A DNA stretch of 64,000 nt. Source: Acidimicrobiia bacterium (GTDB taxonomy: Bacteria > Actinomycetota > Acidimicrobiia > Acidimicrobiales > VFJN01). The position numbers were made by a program, and so were the translations under genes. The notes under the pieces were generated by a model. That model worked only from the letters and a program-made list of their open reading frames with translations. It did not search any database and was not told where the DNA came from. Below are positions 9,588 to 16,978 of this stretch, in pieces. Each line of letters starts with the position of its first letter. The stretch's first letter is position 1. The DNA lies in contig SHVB01000001.1 of assembly GCA_009694375.1 (NCBI GenBank), positions 134,366-198,365 of the forward strand. Direction: 5' to 3'.

Positions 9588-10964
9588 ATGATTCTCCGAC
9601 GCAACTCCCTCCGCGCCGCCTCGGCCGTGCTCCTGTGTCTGCTCATCTCCACCGTCTCCCCTGCGGTGATCCCCTCCGCCGGTGCGGCGACGACGGCGGT
9701 GACCACCAGCGCCGGCGAGGCCGAAGCCACCTTCGCCACCAAACTCAACCAAGAGCGGGTAAAGCGTGGCCTCCCGACTCTCGTGATCGACACGAAACTA
9801 GCGGCCACCTCGCGCGACTGGTCCTCCCGCATGAACAGCACCGGCACCCTGATGCACGATCCCGGTCTCGCCGCCGACATCGCCGCGGTGGAACCCTCCT
9901 GGCAGGCCGCCGCCGAGAACGTCGGGGTGGGCTACGACGTGCAACAACTCCACGATGCCTTCATGGGCTCACCGGGCCATCTGCATAACATCGTGGGGGA
10001 TTACAACCGGCTCGGCATCGGTGTCGCGACCAACGGTGCCAAAATCTGGGTGACGTTCCGCTTTCTGCGGGGTCCGGCCATCGCCGGCTCCACCGGCCTC
10101 GTGACCCCGGGCGTACGCACCCCGCTCAGTGGCGACTTCAACGGCGACGGTCGCGAGGACCTCTTGGCCTACGGCCCCGGTTCGAGCATCGACGAGTTGT
10201 GGTTTGGCAACGCCAACAAAACCCTCCGCCAGGCAACTGTCTCGATAGCCGGGCAGTACCGCCCCGCCGCCGGCGACTTCGACGGCGATGGGCGCACCGA
10301 CATCCTCTGGTACGCACCCGGCGCCCCCTCGGACTACCTCTGGAGTTGGAACGGCACCTCCTGGACGTCCAAGTCGATGACCATCGCCGGCACCTACGTC
10401 CCGCTGGTGGGCGACTACGACGGTGATGGCGTGGATGACCTCCTGTGGTATTCCCCCGGATCGGGCGCCGACTACTACTGGTACGGCAACCGCAACGACA
10501 CCTTTACTTCGGTAGCCACCCCCATCAACGGCATGTACCGACCCATCATCGGAAACCTCGACAACACCGCCGGCGACGATCTCTTCTGGTACGCCCCCGG
10601 CTCCGCTAGCGACTGGATCTGGTACTCCACCGGCGCCCGGGGGCAGTACAAAAACACCGCCAGCGTCGTGAACGGCCTCTACACGCCCTTTACCGCCAAC
10701 ATCGATGGCCGCTTCGGCGACGACATCTACTGGTACGCCCCGGGAGAAGCCGCCGACTTTCTCTGGTTCGCCGGCGCCACCCGCAGCACGTTTACTTCGA
10801 GCCAACGCAACGTCGGCGGGTACTACCTCCCCGCCAGCGGGGACTTCGACGGCAACCAGGCCGACGACATCGTGTGGTTCAACCCCTCGACCGTCGCCGG
10901 CGACCCGCTGTGGTGGTCCACTGCGGGATCGACCTCCCCCACAATGTCTTCAGTGCACGGCTGA
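9588..10964 (+). CDS. Secreted CAP (SCP/PR-1) domain protein with FG-GAP propeller
   Basis: 458 aa. A signal peptide covers about residues 1-33. Residues 45-165 are a CAP domain with LNQERVKRGLPTL, SRDWSSRMNSTGTLMHDP, AAENVG and SPGHLHNIVGDYNRLGIG, including the conserved His and Glu residues. The rest is about six propeller repeats ending in WYAPG, the same type as in the divergent gene at 7398-9476. CAP proteins are extracellular and of varied, mostly unknown function in bacteria. The fusion to a propeller suggests surface or ligand binding. Its last 15 nt overlap the 3' end of the convergent gene that ends at 10950. Confidence 0.85.
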   Translation: MILRRNSLRAASAVLLCLLISTVSPAVIPSAGAATTAVTTSAGEAEATFATKLNQERVKRGLPTLVIDTKLAATSRDWSSRMNSTGTLMHDPGLAADIAAVEPSWQAAAENVGVGYDVQQLHDAFMGSPGHLHNIVGDYNRLGIGVATNGAKIWVTFRFLRGPAIAGSTGLVTPGVRTPLSGDFNGDGREDLLAYGPGSSIDELWFGNANKTLRQATVSIAGQYRPAAGDFDGDGRTDILWYAPGAPSDYLWSWNGTSWTSKSMTIAGTYVPLVGDYDGDGVDDLLWYSPGSGADYYWYGNRNDTFTSVATPINGMYRPIIGNLDNTAGDDLFWYAPGSASDWIWYSTGARGQYKNTASVVNGLYTPFTANIDGRFGDDIYWYAPGEAADFLWFAGATRSTFTSSQRNVGGYYLPASGDFDGNQADDIVWFNPSTVAGDPLWWSTAGSTSPTMSSVHG

Positions 10965-11882
10965 GCGCCGTAACGCCAGCGAACCGATCACGGCACCCAC
11001 CGCATCCACCAGTACGAACACCAGTCGTGCGGCCAACGCCACCGCGGCGGCCACCCCCGGGTCAAGCGATCCCGCCGCCGCCACGAATACCGCTTCCCGT
11101 ACCCCGAGACCTCCGGGCACCGGCACCAGTACGAAGCCAACCACCCACGACAGTACCGCCGCCGCCGCCACCTGCAGCAACGGCGCTTGCGGATCGAGGG
11201 CCCGCGCCACCGCCCAGGTGGCCCCGCCAATCGCCACCCAGGCCGGCACGTAGCGAAACACCAGGGACACCGATCTACCCCACGCCGGGATGACAAAATC
11301 CACCGGGTGGCGGATGACGCGCTCCACCAGGGCCTGCGTTCGCTGCAGGACCGCCGGGTGCAACGCGCCGAGGCCCACTGGGAGCAAGGCCACCACGACC
11401 AGTGCCGCAGCATCCTCGCTGCCCCACAACGCGGGTAGGGCCATCACCACCATGGTCATCGCCGCCAGGTACAAGGTGATGAGCGACAACAACACGCTTC
11501 CGTAAGCGGCCGGACGAGGGATCCCCCAGCGGGTGGCCAGTTCGGCGCGACCCAAAATCGACCACACCCCACCCGGCACGTACTTACCGATCTCGCCCAC
11601 GTAGTAGCGGGCGATCACCTGGGATAGCGGCAGGTCCTCGCCGACGCTCCGAATGGCGTAGCGCCACGGGATGGCGATGGCGGTCATCCCCACCACCGCG
11701 AGCACGACCGCAACGGCCATCCATCCCGGCGATGCCCCCGATAGCGTATCGCCGAGTTGGCGTCGATCCCGCACCACCGTGTGGGCCACGAATCCTCCCG
11801 CCACCAGCGCGAGCACCACCCCGAGGATGGTCGAGGCCCGCCGCGCCGGGGTGCGTTGAGGAAAAGGAGCAGGGGTGGTCAC
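10950..11882 (-). CDS. Lysylphosphatidylglycerol synthase TM-region / UPF0104 family membrane protein
   Basis: 310 aa with about seven to eight membrane segments. The signature of this family is visible: YYVGEIGKYVPGGVWSILGRAELA in the middle and VPGGLGVREAVFVAAA near the C-terminus. Members are transmembrane parts of aminoacyl-lipid synthases or stand-alone proteins thought to move lipids or lipid-linked sugars. No aminoacyltransferase domain is attached here. The start is GTG at 11882: upstream sequence in this frame is antisense-like and lies in the MoeB gene. It follows the moeB-like gene with a 46-bp gap and may be cotranscribed with it. Confidence 0.8.
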   Translation of the reverse strand: MTTPAPFPQRTPARRASTILGVVLALVAGGFVAHTVVRDRRQLGDTLSGASPGWMAVAVVLAVVGMTAIAIPWRYAIRSVGEDLPLSQVIARYYVGEIGKYVPGGVWSILGRAELATRWGIPRPAAYGSVLLSLITLYLAAMTMVVMALPALWGSEDAAALVVVALLPVGLGALHPAVLQRTQALVERVIRHPVDFVIPAWGRSVSLVFRYVPAWVAIGGATWAVARALDPQAPLLQVAAAAVLSWVVGFVLVPVPGGLGVREAVFVAAAGSLDPGVAAAVALAARLVFVLVDAVGAVIGSLALRRSAVH

Positions 11883-11928
11883 GCGATGCCATCTTCGCCG
11901 CTGGCGCGCCCGGCGCGCCGGACGCTCC

Positions 11929-13110
11929 TCAGCGAGCCGCAGGAGCCTGGAGCGGATGGGGTAGGCACAGGCCATCGAGTGCGGCCACCACAATGCGGTC
12001 CCGGTTCGCGTAGGTGATCTCGTTGGTCGGGTCCGGCCGAATCTTGTACTCCCGGAAAGACTGCTCGAGGCTGTCATAGGCCAGCAGGCGGCCCACCAAG
12101 GGATCTCCCAGTTCGAGGAGCAACTTGATGGTCTCGATGGCCTGGATCGAGCCGATGATCCCCGGCAGCACGCCCAGCACCCCCGCCTCGGCACAACTCG
12201 GCGCCATTTCGGCGGGAGGTGGCTCCGGCACCATGTCGCGGTAGGTGGGTCCGTGCTGCGGATCAAACACGGTGACCATGCCCTCGAACCGGAAAATCGA
12301 ACCGTGGACAACGGGAATGCCGAGTTTCACGGAGGCGTCGTTCACCAAAAAGCGGGTGGGGAAGTTGTCGGTGCCATCCACGATGATGTCCCAACCCGGG
12401 AGGATGTCCATCACGTTGTCCGCACCGAGGCGCACATCGAAGGAGACGACGTCGACATCGGGGTTGAGCAGCGTCAGGGTTTTGCGGGCGGAGTCCACCT
12501 TGCGGTCGCCAATGCGCTCCATGTTGTGGAGGATCTGGCGCTGCAGATTCGATGCGTCAACGACATCCATGTCGATGATGCCGATGGTCCCCACCCCGGC
12601 GGCCGCCAGATAGAGCGCCGCGGGCGAGCCCAAACCACCGGCCCCCAACAAGAGCACCCGGGAGTCGAGGAGGGTTTGCTGGCCGACCACATCGACCTCG
12701 GGGAGCAGCAGGTGGCGCTGATAGCGGTTGCGCTGATCGGCGTTGAGGCTCCGGGGGGCGGCCCAGTCGCGGCTCTCGTCTTTCCACTTGTTGAATCCAC
12801 CCGCCATGGAGGCAACGTCGGTGTAGCCCAGTTCGGCGAGCGTCTTGGCGGCGAAGGCAGAGCGCGCTCCCGAGGCGCAGTGGATAATGACCGGCGTTGA
12901 CTTGTTCGGGATGCGGCTCTCGATCGAACTCTCCAGGGTGCCGCGAGCGATGTGGAGCGCCCCGGGGATCGCCCCTTGCTCGTGTTCCTCGGGCTCACGC
13001 ACGTCGAGGATCACGACGTCGTCCCGGGCTCGCGCCGCCTCGGTCTCGGCGGTGTCGACTTCGCGAATCTCGGTCTTGGTGGTGGCCAGAAGTTCACGGA
13101 AACTAGGCAT
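11929..13110 (-). CDS. Rhodanese-MoeB/ThiF E1-like sulfur-carrier adenylyltransferase
   Basis: 393 aa. Residues 1-110 are a rhodanese domain with active-site loop HCASGARS. Residues 125-390 are an E1-like adenylyltransferase with nucleotide loop GAGGLGSPAALYL, an Arg in NLQRQILH and the catalytic Cys in SCAEAGVLG. It would adenylate the C-terminus of a small sulfur carrier (MoaD/ThiS/CysO type) and hand it sulfur. Two features are odd. The rhodanese is N-terminal, whereas MoeZ of mycobacteria has it at the C-terminus. Also, the two CxxC pairs that bind zinc in MoeB are absent: the segment reads GPTYRDMVPEP, and the later pair is also missing. Confidence 0.88.
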   Translation of the reverse strand: MPSFRELLATTKTEIREVDTAETEAARARDDVVILDVREPEEHEQGAIPGALHIARGTLESSIESRIPNKSTPVIIHCASGARSAFAAKTLAELGYTDVASMAGGFNKWKDESRDWAAPRSLNADQRNRYQRHLLLPEVDVVGQQTLLDSRVLLLGAGGLGSPAALYLAAAGVGTIGIIDMDVVDASNLQRQILHNMERIGDRKVDSARKTLTLLNPDVDVVSFDVRLGADNVMDILPGWDIIVDGTDNFPTRFLVNDASVKLGIPVVHGSIFRFEGMVTVFDPQHGPTYRDMVPEPPPAEMAPSCAEAGVLGVLPGIIGSIQAIETIKLLLELGDPLVGRLLAYDSLEQSFREYKIRPDPTNEITYANRDRIVVAALDGLCLPHPLQAPAAR

Positions 13111-13198: not shown

Positions 13199-15295
13199 TC
13201 ACCGCAGCGGGTGCAACACGGAGCGGCCCGCCACCGTGGTCACCTCGTAGGCATCGATCTGATTCGCCCCCTCGCGCAGATACGGGCCCAGCATCGAGTA
13301 GAAGGACCAACTGTCGTCATCCTGACGCCGATAGCCACCAGCGACCCCCGCGACCGTGCCATTGGCCACCAAAACCACGTTGGGCGGTGGGTCCTCGCCC
13401 GATCCGGTGATGTTCCCTACGATCAACTGCGGCATCTGCCCCGCTTCGTCCGGCAATGAGGCGAACGAAGCCTCGTTGATGGCCGCCCAACTCAGCGCCG
13501 CCCTCTCTCCCACCTCAAGGTCGGCCAGCGCGGTGCCCACCAGCGGGCCCGGCTCCCCCACCGCCGCCAGGGCGATCCAGTCGTCGCCGTGGGGAAAGTC
13601 CGCCTCATGGCGGCGCACGAGGTCCAGGAGCGGTGCCAGTTCTTCGCTCACCGTCGGCGTGGCGCGGCGCTGGCTGCCATCCACCAGCGAGTGACCGTCC
13701 ATGACCCAGTCGGTCTTGATGCCCAGGAGGTCGATCAGGGTGGGCAACAGGTCGATGGTCATGGCCACCTCGTCATTCACCACGGCACCGGCCTGTCCGG
13801 GTGTCTTGATGAACATCGGCACCCGGAAGATCTCGTCGGCATTATTGCCGGTTACCGCACGACCTAGATCGGGTCCCAGCAGGCTCGTGCCATGGTCGGC
13901 GGTCACGATGACGGTTGCGTCGTCCCACACCCCCGACGCCTCCAGATGGTCGATTACGTCCCCGAGGGCCACATCGGTCGCTCCTACCTGGAGGGAGTGG
14001 CGCTGGTAGCGCAGTTGCACGCTGCTGTTGAAGCCCGGCAGGGTCGCATCCTCAACCCAGGACGGTGTCGGAGGCATGACGCGAGTACCCCAGGGGGTGG
14101 AGAACCATGGCGAGTGGGGCAGCACCACATGCACGAAATAAAATCCGGGGGTGGAGTCCACCGCCAGCCCCTGTTCCACCAGACGAGCCGCCTGGGTCCC
14201 GGGTTCTCGTTCGGATGCGGCAAACGCACGGTAGCGGGCGAGCGGATCGGACTGGCCGAACCCATCATCAGGAGTGGCGCCACCCACCGAAGCCACGCTG
14301 ATTCCCTTCCCGAAGGTCCCCCAGGCATCGTTGATAGGCGGCAGGTGCTGACGCAGATGCGCGGGCAGTACCCGGTGCTGGAATACAACCGCGGCGTCGG
14401 ACAGCGCCTGACGAAGCGACTGTCCCGGTCGGGCCTCGCAGGCCTCGGGAGGACACATATTAGTGACGGCTTCGTAGCGCTCCACCGGCATACCGGCGCT
14501 CATGAGCGCCAGGATGTTGCGGGGGAGGTCCTGATAACTGGGCATCACACGGCCCCCCGGGATCACGCCCGTCATGATCGCCGGAACGGCCCTCTCGGTG
14601 GCCGGGCTCACGCTGCTGGCGTTTCGATACCAGGTGGAGGCTTTCGCCAACCGGGCGAAGGCGGGATAGCGCGCCTCGTTGATTGTGCCGTCGGACCGCA
14701 TCAAGGTGGACATCGGCAACTCGTCAAAGACGATGAACACCACTGGCCCCGACGGGGTTGGCACCGACACCTTGCCCAGCGCCTCCGGGTTGGATTCGTC
14801 GCTCAGCAGATCACTGGTAGGGCTCATCACCAGAAAACCAAACAGGAACAAAACGTTGGCCATCGCCAGGTACCCCAGGAGCATGCGGCCCCCCTTGGCC
14901 CGGGCCAGTACCACCGTGGCCGCCACCCCCAACACCGTGGCGAGCATCGCCACCACTCTGCGGTCCATCCCGAGCCCGCGCACGAGCACATTGCCGAAAA
15001 GTCCACCGAGTCCGCCCAGCAGCACCGCGTGGGTCCAGTTGCCCACTCGCGTCCCACACCACCGCGCCACTCCAAAGACCGCCACCACCACCAGCGAAGG
15101 TGCCACCGCCACTACCAAGGCGAACTCCACGACCTGGGCGGGGGTGTAGCGACCGGCGATGAAGAACTCCGGATTTTGACCCATCAGATCAAGCACGGGC
15201 TGGGTGATAGCGAGACTCGCCACTCCCGACAGCGCCGCCACCTGCCCCCAGACCGATGCCCATCCCCGATACGGATCGGTCACTGGTGTGTTCAC
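13199..15295 (-). CDS. Membrane-anchored sulfatase-like hydrolase/phosphotransferase
   Basis: 698 aa. The first 165 residues contain about five membrane segments. The extracytoplasmic rest is an alkaline-phosphatase/sulfatase fold with FIVFDELP near residue 185, a TERAVPAIMTG segment where the nucleophile Thr/Ser would sit, HVVLPHSPW, and the metal-site motif TADHGTSLLG. No CxPxR formylglycine motif is visible, so a phosphotransferase such as LtaS, or a hydrolase, is more likely than a true sulfatase. The GTG start at 15295 lies 6 nt after TAGAGT. It is divergent from the 60-aa membrane protein and the kinase-like/methyltransferase gene, suggesting joint work on the envelope. Confidence 0.82.
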   Translation of the reverse strand: MNTPVTDPYRGWASVWGQVAALSGVASLAITQPVLDLMGQNPEFFIAGRYTPAQVVEFALVVAVAPSLVVVAVFGVARWCGTRVGNWTHAVLLGGLGGLFGNVLVRGLGMDRRVVAMLATVLGVAATVVLARAKGGRMLLGYLAMANVLFLFGFLVMSPTSDLLSDESNPEALGKVSVPTPSGPVVFIVFDELPMSTLMRSDGTINEARYPAFARLAKASTWYRNASSVSPATERAVPAIMTGVIPGGRVMPSYQDLPRNILALMSAGMPVERYEAVTNMCPPEACEARPGQSLRQALSDAAVVFQHRVLPAHLRQHLPPINDAWGTFGKGISVASVGGATPDDGFGQSDPLARYRAFAASEREPGTQAARLVEQGLAVDSTPGFYFVHVVLPHSPWFSTPWGTRVMPPTPSWVEDATLPGFNSSVQLRYQRHSLQVGATDVALGDVIDHLEASGVWDDATVIVTADHGTSLLGPDLGRAVTGNNADEIFRVPMFIKTPGQAGAVVNDEVAMTIDLLPTLIDLLGIKTDWVMDGHSLVDGSQRRATPTVSEELAPLLDLVRRHEADFPHGDDWIALAAVGEPGPLVGTALADLEVGERAALSWAAINEASFASLPDEAGQMPQLIVGNITGSGEDPPPNVVLVANGTVAGVAGGYRRQDDDSWSFYSMLGPYLREGANQIDAYEVTTVAGRSVLHPLR

Positions 15296-15301
15296 TTGCG
15301 G

Positions 15302-15307
15302 ACTCTA
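15302..15307 (-). promoter_or_regulatory. -10 element TAGAGT, leaderless start
   Basis: TAGAGT is 6 nt before the GTG of the sulfatase-like gene; no ribosome-binding site lies between. Confidence 0.5.
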
Positions 15308-15377
15308 CCGCCCCTGCAAGTGAACGCACCAGCACCACCAGATCACCCAAAAGCAACCACTGGATGAACGAAGCGAC

Positions 15378-15383
15378 TAAGGT
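15378..15383 (+). promoter_or_regulatory. -10 element TAAGGT, leaderless start
   Basis: TAAGGT is 6 nt before the ATG of the 60-aa membrane protein. It is divergent from the sulfatase promoter 70 bp away. Confidence 0.5.
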
Positions 15384-15389
15384 TTGGCC

Positions 15390-15572
15390 ATGTTTAGTTA
15401 CTTAGACGCCAACACCGGATCCATGATCCTAACGGCCTTGGCCGGTGGTGCCGCCGGTATTGCCGTGCTTCTCCGAATGTACGGCCACCGCTTCCTCGGG
15501 ATTTTTTCCAAGAAGCATCGTGACCAAGCCGAAGCCAGCTTCGAAGACCTCATGGGCGAGCAGCCAGACTGA
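15390..15572 (+). CDS. Small membrane protein of the SYLDPGTGS-type family
   Basis: 60 aa. It begins MFSYLDANTGSMIL, which resembles the short MxSYLDPGTGS proteins often seen next to sulfatase and methyltransferase genes. One membrane helix (about residues 11-29) is followed by a basic, charged tail with the segment KKHRDQAEASFEDLMG. ATG 15390 was preferred to the TTG two codons earlier because of the -10 spacing and family start. It is followed after 5 bp by the kinase-like/methyltransferase gene, so the two form an operon. The function is unknown; it may anchor or recruit the neighbouring cytoplasmic enzyme. Confidence 0.75.
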   Translation: MFSYLDANTGSMILTALAGGAAGIAVLLRMYGHRFLGIFSKKHRDQAEASFEDLMGEQPD

Positions 15573-15577
15573 GTCCG

Positions 15578-16978
15578 GTGTCCCCCTTCGCCGATCCCGG
15601 TTCGTTTCGGGATCCCACATCACGCGTGTACCTCGACGACCAGGCGGTGTGGCGCGGCCTGAATACCCAGGCCTGGACCGATTTTCAGGCCTTCGCCGCC
15701 ACCGCCACCTACCGCAACGCCCAGGCCGATGGTCGCCTGATCGCCACCACCGCGGTTGCGGTCGAGGATGCACCGGTGGACGAGGGTTGGGTTGCCGCGC
15801 TGCGCCACCGGCGGCTCCCGGTGATCAGCTATCCCTACGAGTGGTCCTTCTCAATGCTCCAAGACGCCGCCCTGCTGCAACTCGATCTGGCCCGAGAAGC
15901 ACTGGCCGAAGGCATCCTCACCAAGGACGCCACCTCGTACAACGTGCAGTTCGACGGCAGCCAACCGGTGTTCATCGACCTCGGGTCCTTTGAGCGTTTG
16001 GTCTCCGGGCAACCGTGGCCGGGCTACCGGCAGTTCTGTGCACTATTCCTGAACCCGCTGATCCTCCAAGCCGAAGCGGAAATCCCGTTCCAGCCCTGGC
16101 TGCGCGGGGCGATCAACGGCATCTCCCCCACCCAGGCCGCGGCCGCAATCGGAAAGCGCCGCCGATTCCGCAAGGACCTCTTCACTCACGTCCGACTGCA
16201 CGCCCGGGCCGAATCCCGCTTCGCCAATAGCGACAAGGACCATGATGTGGGCCGCGAGCTGCAACGAGCGGGCTTCGGGCCCAAGCTCATCGACGCGCAG
16301 CTCGCCAACCTGCAACGCTCGGTGCGACGCCTCGAGTGGACTGCAGCGGCGTCCGCATGGTCGGAATACAGCGACCGCAGCCACTACACCGATGACGATC
16401 TCGACGCGAAAGCCGACTTCGTGGCGCGCGCCACTCGGTCGTTGACGACCCCCACGGTGCTTGATCTCGGTGCCAACGACGGCCGGTTCTCCCGCGTGGC
16501 GCTCGATGCGGGAGCGGGTCTCGCCGTCGCGGTCGACGGCGATCACCTCACCGTGGACCATCTCTACCGGCAGTTGCGACAGGACGGCGAGTCGCGGATC
16601 CTCCCGTTGGTGGTCGACCTCGCCGATCCCTCCCCCGCCCTCGGGTGGCGCTCACGGGAGCGGCCCTCCTTCCTGGAGCGGGTGCGGCCCGATCTGGTGC
16701 TGTGCCTGGCGGTCATCCACCACCTGGCCCTTACCAACACGGTGCCCTTTCCTGAGATCGTGGCCTTCCTCGCCGACTTCCAGGCGCCGATCGTGGTGGA
16801 GATGCCCCACCGCAACGATCCGATGGCCGCCCGTCTCCTCAACCGCAAGCGCGACGGCCTCTTCGACCAGTACGACCAGCCCCAGTGGGAAGTCGCCCTG
16901 CGGCAACGTTTCCGCGTGGTGGAGCAGGTCACCCTGCCCTCGGGCACCCGCACGCTCTACCTCTGCCACCCGAGCTAG
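15578..16978 (+). CDS. Kinase-like domain fused to SAM-dependent methyltransferase
   Basis: 466 aa. The C-terminal half (from about 270) is a class I methyltransferase: motif I PTVLDLGANDGRFSRVAL, then VVDLADPSP, DLVLCLAVIHHL and a VVEMPHRNDPM segment. The N-terminal half has SYPYEWSFSMLQDAALL and then KDATSYNVQFDGSQPVFIDL. The spacing of D, N and ID in this stretch resembles the catalytic loop and metal motif of aminoglycoside-kinase-like folds; this is my inference. The GTG start at 15578 is 5 bp after the stop of the small membrane protein. It ends 4 bp from the convergent Sir2 gene. Its role is probably modification of an envelope glycan or lipid, not shown. Confidence 0.78.
   Translation: MSPFADPGSFRDPTSRVYLDDQAVWRGLNTQAWTDFQAFAATATYRNAQADGRLIATTAVAVEDAPVDEGWVAALRHRRLPVISYPYEWSFSMLQDAALLQLDLAREALAEGILTKDATSYNVQFDGSQPVFIDLGSFERLVSGQPWPGYRQFCALFLNPLILQAEAEIPFQPWLRGAINGISPTQAAAAIGKRRRFRKDLFTHVRLHARAESRFANSDKDHDVGRELQRAGFGPKLIDAQLANLQRSVRRLEWTAAASAWSEYSDRSHYTDDDLDAKADFVARATRSLTTPTVLDLGANDGRFSRVALDAGAGLAVAVDGDHLTVDHLYRQLRQDGESRILPLVVDLADPSPALGWRSRERPSFLERVRPDLVLCLAVIHHLALTNTVPFPEIVAFLADFQAPIVVEMPHRNDPMAARLLNRKRDGLFDQYDQPQWEVALRQRFRVVEQVTLPSGTRTLYLCHPS

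Follow-up and report, generated by a model that had tools for sequence, protein, structure and literature searches.

The closest described counterpart of the genes analysed here is the nodL-noeA-noeB operon of Sinorhizobium, a set of host-range nodulation genes that includes homologues of all three. Ensifer canadensis pT173b carries, in sequence, nodL, a 71-aa 'hypothetical protein' (AHA-YLDPGTGSM...), noeA and noeB. According to the papers cited here, as far as their available text goes, the activity of NoeA and NoeB has stood as a hypothesis, Nod factor modification, since 1995, and a role of NoeA in that modification is put forward in this form in PMC9048898. The accessible part of PMC9758233 deals with the Lani_1194 family, for which NoeA is a named homologue: a kinase plus a methyltransferase is predicted, NoeB is assigned an alkaline phosphatase fold, and the neighbourhood is conserved, with Lani_1193 present in 65% of 816 neighbourhoods and Lani_1195 also a neighbour. 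A third system is WbdD of E. coli O9a, an enzyme working at the inner membrane with an envelope glycan as its substrate; according to PMC3482155, it phosphorylates a polyprenol-linked glycan and then methylates that phosphate. The available text of PMC9758233 calls WbdD and a second family, Lcin_0519, remotely related, and compares WbdD with Lcin_0519, not with Lani_1194.

The window (the whole analysed stretch of 64,000 nucleotides) comes from an actinobacterium with no visible link to legumes, in contrast to the nodulation genes of Sinorhizobium. It carries a three-gene unit that is widespread in bacteria and half-known from root-nodule bacteria:

13199..15295, minus strand: gene of the NoeB-type membrane enzyme, 698 aa, GTG start
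14597..14599, minus strand: codon of Thr233 of the NoeB-type enzyme, the presumed nucleophile replacing the formylglycine-Cys
15296..15389, no strand: divergent intergenic region, 94 bp
15390..15572, plus strand: gene of the small 'YLD' membrane protein, ATG start giving 60 aa (or 62 aa if TTG at 15384 is the start)
15578..16978, plus strand: gene of the NoeA-type enzyme, 466 aa, GTG start
15578..16345, plus strand: kinase-fold half of the NoeA-type enzyme, residues 1–256
16346..16975, plus strand: class I SAM-dependent methyltransferase half of the NoeA-type enzyme, residues 257–466

The three open reading frames are arranged as an earlier note on this DNA had described them. The NoeB-type gene runs divergently to the small ORF and the two-domain enzyme; the 94 bp that separate 15295 from 15390 gave no sigma-70-type match in a promoter scan, and the small ORF ends 5 bp before the two-domain enzyme (gap 15573–15577). 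No glycan genes adjoin the three. Unlike the Sinorhizobium operon, the window lacks nodL, has its noeB-type gene in divergent orientation, and encodes a noeB-type protein of 698 instead of 553 aa.

Judged by its alignment with Sinorhizobium noeA (35% identity, 97–98% coverage, E ~1e-56), the two-domain enzyme is a full-length NoeA homologue, and it belongs to the same enzyme family as Lani_1194 in the available text of PMC9758233. The structure model of the full-length 466-aa protein had a pLDDT of 92.5 and a pTM of 0.93. A fold search with this model listed methyltransferases throughout, and the N-terminal half (residues 1–256) was therefore predicted alone. The best 50 matches listed for this half all had the kinase fold (kinases, pseudokinases and RNase L), the best one with Z 11.3 and rmsd 3.9 over 200 of the 256 residues. 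The earlier note had singled out KDATSYNVQF (residues 116–125) and FIDLGSF (residues 132–138) as kinase-like and had proposed this very comparison of predicted folds; the motifs are present, and the outcome did not refute the kinase reading. D117, N122 and D134 in these motifs, together with R26, which occupies the place of the usual kinase Lys, show no variation among 62 aligned NoeA-type sequences from many phyla, with identities down to ~28%. No kinase family of Pfam was reached in these 62 members, so that the kinase likeness comes from the fold, and the N-terminal half is predicted to have a kinase fold with active-site Asp, Asn and Asp. One might suppose that this half is degenerate, regulatory or structural, that methylation is the one real activity, and that the small protein serves simply as a membrane tether or as a short regulatory peptide. 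The motifs are atypical, Lys is changed to Arg, the ion-pair Glu is not identifiable in the available account of the family (PMC9758233), and a few fold neighbours are pseudokinases (IRAK3). However, because D117, N122, D134 and R26 are invariant across 62 such divergent sequences, we favour catalysis by the kinase half and consider its degeneracy quite improbable.

The C-terminal half, previously called a clear methyltransferase, earns the name by its fold (Z 16–18 to methyltransferases, several of which fit as well as WbdD), whereas its Pfam support is weak (best 0.0032). Computation thus shows a kinase fold and a methyltransferase joined in one cytosolic NoeA-type chain. WbdD likewise joins a kinase and a methyltransferase in one chain, but its order is methyltransferase, kinase and coiled coil, whereas the kinase precedes the methyltransferase in the window enzyme. 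WbdD is also the best PDB sequence-profile match of the whole enzyme (5.8e-5), through the SAM motif only. A different chemistry would have the NoeA-type enzyme phosphorylate an amino-alcohol and methylate its nitrogen, in the manner of the conversion of phosphoethanolamine to phosphocholine, with the NoeB-type enzyme handling the resulting phospholipid or phosphodiester outside. Transferases of the alkaline phosphatase (AP) superfamily with Thr commonly move head groups of the phosphoethanolamine or phosphocholine style, in keeping with this idea, and phospho(methyl)ethanolamine N-methyltransferases do appear among the weak PDB profile matches (0.072–0.29, SAM motif only). These matches are nevertheless weaker than that to WbdD, and no cytidylyltransferase occurs among the Pfam-scanned neighbours of the window genes, which makes such soluble head-group chemistry decidedly unlikely. 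A role in defence, suggested by just a weak match to PADLOC mad2 (2e-07) over the methyltransferase half, was set aside.

The 698-aa protein had been described as a sulfatase-like membrane enzyme without the formylglycine motif. It does match Pfam Sulfatase (4.2e-21), and the C/S-x-P-x-R nucleophile motif is indeed absent: the position reads ATERAVPAIMTG, with Thr233 (T233-E-R-A-V-P) falling on the matching Cys of 4upk in the alignment. Its identity as a formylglycine sulfatase was accordingly discarded, and it is better described as a member of the AP superfamily with a putative Thr nucleophile, like that of phosphotransferases. Across 57 NoeB-type rows, the nucleophile position holds Thr in 44, Ser in nine and another residue or a gap in four (Thr/Ser in 53 of 57). 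D191, T233, H389, H394, D467 and H468 are conserved among the relatives, the metal-site residues of the superfamily being present in 48 of 49 (D191), 51 of 51 (D467) and 51 of 51 (H468) rows with a residue. Hydrophobic segments lie at about 58–76, 113–131 and 138–156 (Kyte-Doolittle), and the extracytoplasmic catalytic domain follows them. No curated NCBIfam cut-off was reached (NF053595, 37.8 of 970 bits). The computation shows, in sum, a NoeB-type membrane enzyme of the AP superfamily whose nucleophile position is occupied by Thr.

Thr serves as the nucleophile in LTA synthase and in phosphoethanolamine transferases of the EptA type, which share with the NoeB-type enzyme a membrane-anchored AP-superfamily fold, and LTA synthase (LtaS) chains were also matched by its profile (1.5e-12). 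Phosphonate monoester hydrolases are, in contrast, the better profile matches, and among solved structures the top relatives belong to the phosphonate monoester/phosphodiester hydrolases (4upk, 4.7e-28; 2w8s, 3.5e-19). The enzyme might then be a hydrolase, akin to phosphodiesterases or phosphonate monoester hydrolases, that takes off or edits what NoeA has added. We regard this as unlikely, though worth keeping in mind, since those hydrolases use a formylglycine-Cys where the NoeB-type family has the Thr of the transferases, and since the NoeB-type enzyme is membrane-anchored and no soluble hydrolase.

The small protein consists of an N-terminal YLDxxTGS motif, one transmembrane segment (residues 10–28, Kyte-Doolittle) and a basic, then acidic tail. 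Pfam, NCBIfam and PADLOC hold no family for it, and a scan of 40 YLD members with Pfam and NCBIfam gave nothing above a curated cut-off, the scattered hits being to unrelated models (best 0.00093). Its HMM, whose seed sequences were picked with a regular expression from part of the loci, where matches are therefore partly circular, found it in 74 of 80 NoeA-like loci that had been retrieved through the enzyme only. In 69 of the 74 it lies on the same strand as NoeA and ends −60 to +200 nt from the aligned start of the enzyme (gene calls outside the named loci are longest-ORF guesses made by script). Because the small protein is so frequent and so tightly placed, the three-gene arrangement is far above chance; with an AP-superfamily gene detected in 57 of the 80 stretches, the repeated co-occurrence that the earlier note had asked about is found.

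Six of the 80 NoeA loci have no small protein nearby; in one of them, L056, it seems to lie elsewhere in the genome (G347), where NoeA is on a different contig from the small protein and NoeB. An AP-superfamily gene went undetected in 23 of the 80 stretches, 11 of which extend 2.5 kb or further in each direction. These exceptions would suit a mere neighbourhood of three genes often co-transferred but serving separate tasks. Against this explanation, which we hold to be very improbable, stand the altered gene orders of the same parts (L029, L036 and L084), their fusions and their co-presence at the genome level. The genome counts were made with the small-protein alignment A2, covering further genomes beyond the seed loci, at E limits that differ between samples (1e-3, 1e-6 and 1e-5). 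The small protein occurs in 29 genomes of the window's class, 28 of the phylum and 12 of the class of L074, 66 of them distinct; G095 (2.1e-4), included in the 30 found at the 1e-3 limit, was left out of the 29, since the small-protein HMM did not confirm it in L127. Treating genomes as independent, though they are related, Fisher p values for co-presence were 2.6e-22, 1.5e-31 and 5.9e-10.

NoeA is present in 57 of the 66 genomes, and the remaining nine have a TagF-like CDP-glycerol-type transferase. The small protein had been proposed as a helper of the kinase-methyltransferase; the linkage stands, but it is not the partner of NoeA alone. Without NoeA, it pairs with the TagF-like transferase, usually still beside a NoeB-like gene: among 18 small-protein stretches without an adjoining NoeA (L123–L131, L135, L137–L140 and L151–L154), an AP-superfamily gene was found in 12 (L123, L124, L128, L129, L130, L135, L137, L138, L139, L140, L153 and L154) and not in six (L125, L126, L127, L131, L151 and L152). 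L127 and L131 are weak small-protein matches, and the small gene of L152 lies at a contig end. In L128, phosphonate pathway genes lie between two pairs of small protein and AP gene. Natural fusions join the same parts: the small protein with the TagF-like enzyme in L153, a small-like with an AP part in L140, adjoining a fusion of YidC-like and TagF-like parts, and TagF-like, YLD-like and NoeB-like parts within a single 1377-aa chain in L164, whose small-like segment is below threshold with the small-protein HMM (0.09).

Parts of this unit are already in print. The enzyme and the sulfatase-like protein are of NoeA and NoeB type, and the available text of PMC9758233 already gives the kinase and methyltransferase reading, so that the idea of a new small system falls. 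An envelope module of phosphorylation and methylation helped by a small protein fits the kinase fold and the co-occurrence. Lani_1193 may be the YLD protein, an identity not described in that text, which likewise makes no mention of a TagF-like partner, a fusion or a link to phosphonates. Searches of the open-licence PMC literature found neither YLDPGTGS-type motif strings nor a link of phosphonate (PntC), glycerophosphotransferase and sulfatase, or of CDP-glycerol glycerophosphotransferase, YidC and sulfatase/AP superfamily; for NoeA and NoeB in connection with a kinase and a methyltransferase, they led back to PMC9758233. The linkage of the small YLD protein to NoeA and TagF-like enzymes and its fusions were thus not found in print within that literature.

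Our preferred reading, with a probability of roughly 45%, is that of a NoeA/NoeB-type unit in which a membrane adaptor links a cytosolic enzyme that adds a phosphate group with an extracytoplasmic phosphotransferase that has a Thr nucleophile and modifies a glycan of the envelope. The substrate would be a lipid-linked glycan. At the inner face of the membrane, the kinase half would use ATP to phosphorylate a hydroxyl, either on a lipid-linked sugar or on the head group of a lipid, and the methyltransferase half would methylate that phosphate, as WbdD does. The methylated product would cross the membrane, and the NoeB-type enzyme would transfer (or cut) the phosphodiester outside via Thr233, while the YLD protein, with its motif outside and its tail inside, would keep both halves together across the membrane. 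Two interchangeable routes, by NoeA or by the TagF-like enzyme, might lead to one type of carrier bearing an alkyl-phosphate or phosphonate group.

In its wider form, held just as tentatively, this reading makes NoeA/NoeB one edition of an unrecognised envelope machine composed of the YLD adaptor, the Thr-phosphotransferase of the AP superfamily and, as the source of the phosphorus group, a cytosolic enzyme that can be exchanged. This enzyme could be NoeA (ATP and SAM giving a methyl phosphate) or a TagF-like transferase (a CDP/CMP-activated group, which at some loci would come from a phosphonate pathway); a YidC-like membrane domain is sometimes present as well. Two genera of a single actinobacterial family would have the TagF edition as one chain of the 1377-aa type, running from cytosolic transferase through adaptor to outer enzyme. 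On this view, the 71-aa ORF that separates nodL from noeA would be a nodulation gene so far missed, and a knockout of noeA or noeB only would let it escape the test. The fold, the Thr nucleophile, the parallel with WbdD, the exchange of NoeA for a TagF-like enzyme and the fusions come together in a single testable chemical proposal, in which the tiny YLD protein, so far overlooked, is the most telling part. The unit is found in many phyla, including soil Micromonospora, Planctomycetota and Bacteroidota, without nodulation, and therefore bears on cell envelopes generally.

Six genomes have NoeA without the small protein (G121, G180, G282, G315, G510 and G522), and in three of them (G282, G315 and G522) NoeA lies at a contig end or close to one. 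G081 has a TagF-like match but no small protein, and weak, partial matches of this kind occur in G226, G247, G315 and G353.

The window belongs to a 2.58-Mb draft genome of 36 contigs (96% complete). Reading its open frames recovered the three genes described in the earlier note, a sulfatase-like enzyme, a small membrane protein and a two-domain enzyme:

13199-15295, minus strand: NoeB-type enzyme of the alkaline phosphatase (AP) superfamily, 698 aa
15390-15572, plus strand: one-helix membrane protein with a YLD motif, 60 aa
15578-16978, plus strand: two-domain NoeA-type enzyme, 466 aa

Sinorhizobium NoeA is a full-length homologue of the two-domain enzyme (35% identity, 97% coverage). In nodulation, noeA and noeB affect host range and are hypothesised to act in Nod factor modification (PMC9048898), and a poorly nodulating strain carries a truncated noeA (PMC4053727). 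Krysinska and others have predicted a kinase plus methyltransferase for Lani_1194/NoeA and an AP fold for NoeB, and described the gene surroundings as conserved (65% and 38% of 816; PMC9758233). The window unit therefore belongs to a known kind and is not the new small system that had been proposed; the interest rests in a wider pattern comprising the small protein, an exchangeable partner and gene fusions, of which we found no description in the open-licence PMC texts accessible to us, although Lani_1193, the neighbour of Lani_1194, may be the small YLD protein.

The kinase-like nature suggested for the N-terminal half of the two-domain enzyme was borne out by structure prediction. The full-length model (pLDDT 92.5) returned a fold-match list filled by methyltransferases; residues 1-256 modelled alone (pLDDT 92.7) matched kinases over the whole half; all 50 matches listed were kinase folds, the best being PKR (6d3l; Z 11.3, rmsd 3.9, 200 residues). 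R26, D117, N122 and D134 were unchanged in 62 of 62 aligned sequences. The top PDB sequence-profile match, spanning the SAM motif, was WbdD (5.8e-5), an E. coli enzyme that adds a phosphate to the terminal mannose of a polyprenol-linked O-antigen and afterwards methylates it (PMC3482155). The methyltransferase half also gave a weak PADLOC match to mad2 (2e-07).

The NoeB-type enzyme has the Pfam Sulfatase fold (4.2e-21), with Thr233 in the place of the sulfatase nucleophile, aligned by HMMER with the corresponding Cys of 4upk. This place is held by Thr in 44 of 57 aligned relatives, by Ser in nine and by another residue or a gap in four; D191, H389, H394, D467 and H468 are conserved in the family. 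The solved relatives are, best first, phosphonate monoester hydrolases (4.7e-28), sulfatases and LTA synthases (1.5e-12). Given Thr233 and these closest relatives, 'sulfatase' is the name of the fold only, and phosphodiesters would be the likelier substrates. A 491-aa open frame on the opposite strand (13892-15367) is most probably an artefact caused by high G+C.

The small protein matched no Pfam or NCBIfam family. Its Tyr and Asp of the YLD motif are invariant in 40 of 40 aligned sequences, 14 of which have A-x-A immediately before the Tyr, behind a hydrophobic leader. Because this arrangement resembles a signal-peptide cleavage site, the mature protein is predicted to start with YLDPGTGS outside, cross the membrane once and keep its charged tail inside. 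A clear member is an unnamed frame on Ensifer canadensis pT173b, between nodL and noeA, possibly a missed nodulation gene:

L109:5748-5963: 71-aa YLD frame with a leader ending in AHA; 23-nt overlap with noeA at its annotated start

The genes of the proposed module do recur together. Among 80 named NoeA-type loci, kept from 95 relatives found and spanning Actinomycetota, Planctomycetota, Pseudomonadota, Bacteroidota, Acidobacteriota, Chloroflexota and one methanogen, an HMM built here detected the small protein in 74, and an AP-superfamily gene lay in 57 within the stretch available per locus. In 69 of the 80 the small gene shares the strand of the enzyme gene and has its end -60 to +200 nt from the aligned start of the enzyme; it lies at other nearby places in L029, L034, L036, L084 and L102, and the HMM scan did not find it in L056, L072, L079, L081, L083 and L089. 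Of 148 genomes of the window's class, 26 had NoeA, 30 the small protein and 25 both (Fisher p 2.6e-22), the corresponding figures being 30, 28 and 27 of 246 in a phylum sample (1.5e-31) and 10, 12 and 8 of 190 in the class of the Chelativorans locus (5.9e-10), with p values that treat genomes as independent and are uncorrected for relatedness.

The small protein also occurs away from NoeA. In G347, seemingly the genome of L056, a small plus NoeB-type pair is on a different contig from NoeA (stretches L135 and L136), showing that the pair can exist apart. Of 18 stretches that carry a small gene but no adjoining NoeA, 12 contained an AP-superfamily gene, mostly adjacent. The 190-genome sample had four genomes with the small protein and no NoeA (G397, G404, G487, G568), exactly the four with a TagF-like (CDP-glycerol-type) transferase. 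The query for this enzyme was the C-part and fusion of locus L153, and 6 of 7 members match Pfam Glyphos_transf. The four firm cases in the window's class (G037, G052, G056, G133) and the sole one in the phylum sample (G159) also have it. Thus, among 66 distinct small-positive genomes (G095 left out), 57 have NoeA and the remaining nine the TagF-like enzyme. G013, also of the window's class, has NoeA with one small gene, and TagF-like with two small genes on another contig; in that class the query further matched G081, more weakly and with no small gene. In the phylum sample it also matched G346 and, weakly and partially, G226, G247, G315 and G353, where the small protein did not pass the limit applied.

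Several of these parts are fused. In L153 (G487) the small protein is joined to the TagF-like enzyme (432 aa; HMM 4.7e-11); next to it are genes for a 1003-aa protein that combines YidC-like (60KD_IMP) and Sulfatase parts, for an EamA protein and for a cytidylyltransferase-like protein. L140 (G159) encodes a YidC-like plus TagF-like protein (722 aa), then a small-like segment (1.1e-7 with the small-protein profile A2) plus Sulfatase (731 aa). L164 (G346) holds these four parts in one frame:

L164:3637-7770: single 1377-aa frame; 60KD_IMP (YidC-like insertase domain) 38-223, TagF-like 280-639, small-like ~697-750, Sulfatase to the end

Its small-like segment, which contains ATARPAFAYVDPSVMTYTIQAL, is a tentative assignment by place, motif and relatives (E 0.09 with our HMM). 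Across 140 genomes of G346's family, the chain has matches in 35; it is one frame in G346, G595, G646, G647 and G648 (query 1-1377 or 15/19-1369/1375), and most others are split near residues 650-690, immediately before the small-like segment.

A phosphonate-type pathway accompanies the unit at one locus, and L123 has the same gene kinds, with the PEP mutase equivalog matched:

L128:4932-13344: two small plus AP pairs flanking genes for PEP mutase-cytidylyltransferase, a phosphonopyruvate-decarboxylase-like protein, Fe-alcohol dehydrogenase and a TagF-like protein

That these parts are found as three separate genes, in two-part fusions and in a single chain is most simply read as one machine. 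Its exchangeable part would be cytosolic and add a phosphorus group, using ATP and SAM in the NoeA version and a CDP/CMP-activated donor in the TagF-like one, whereas the adaptor with its single helix and, outside, the Thr-type AP enzyme would be constant. On this reading, a lipid-linked or membrane carrier would receive an alkyl-phosphate or phosphonate group at the inner side, and the AP enzyme would handle that group outside.

Two genes from the unit, the window encodes an LPG_synthase_TM-type flippase-like membrane protein (10950-12311; 3.9e-22) with no evident tie to it; this gene overlaps the end of a rhodanese-MoeZ-like gene (11929-13110).
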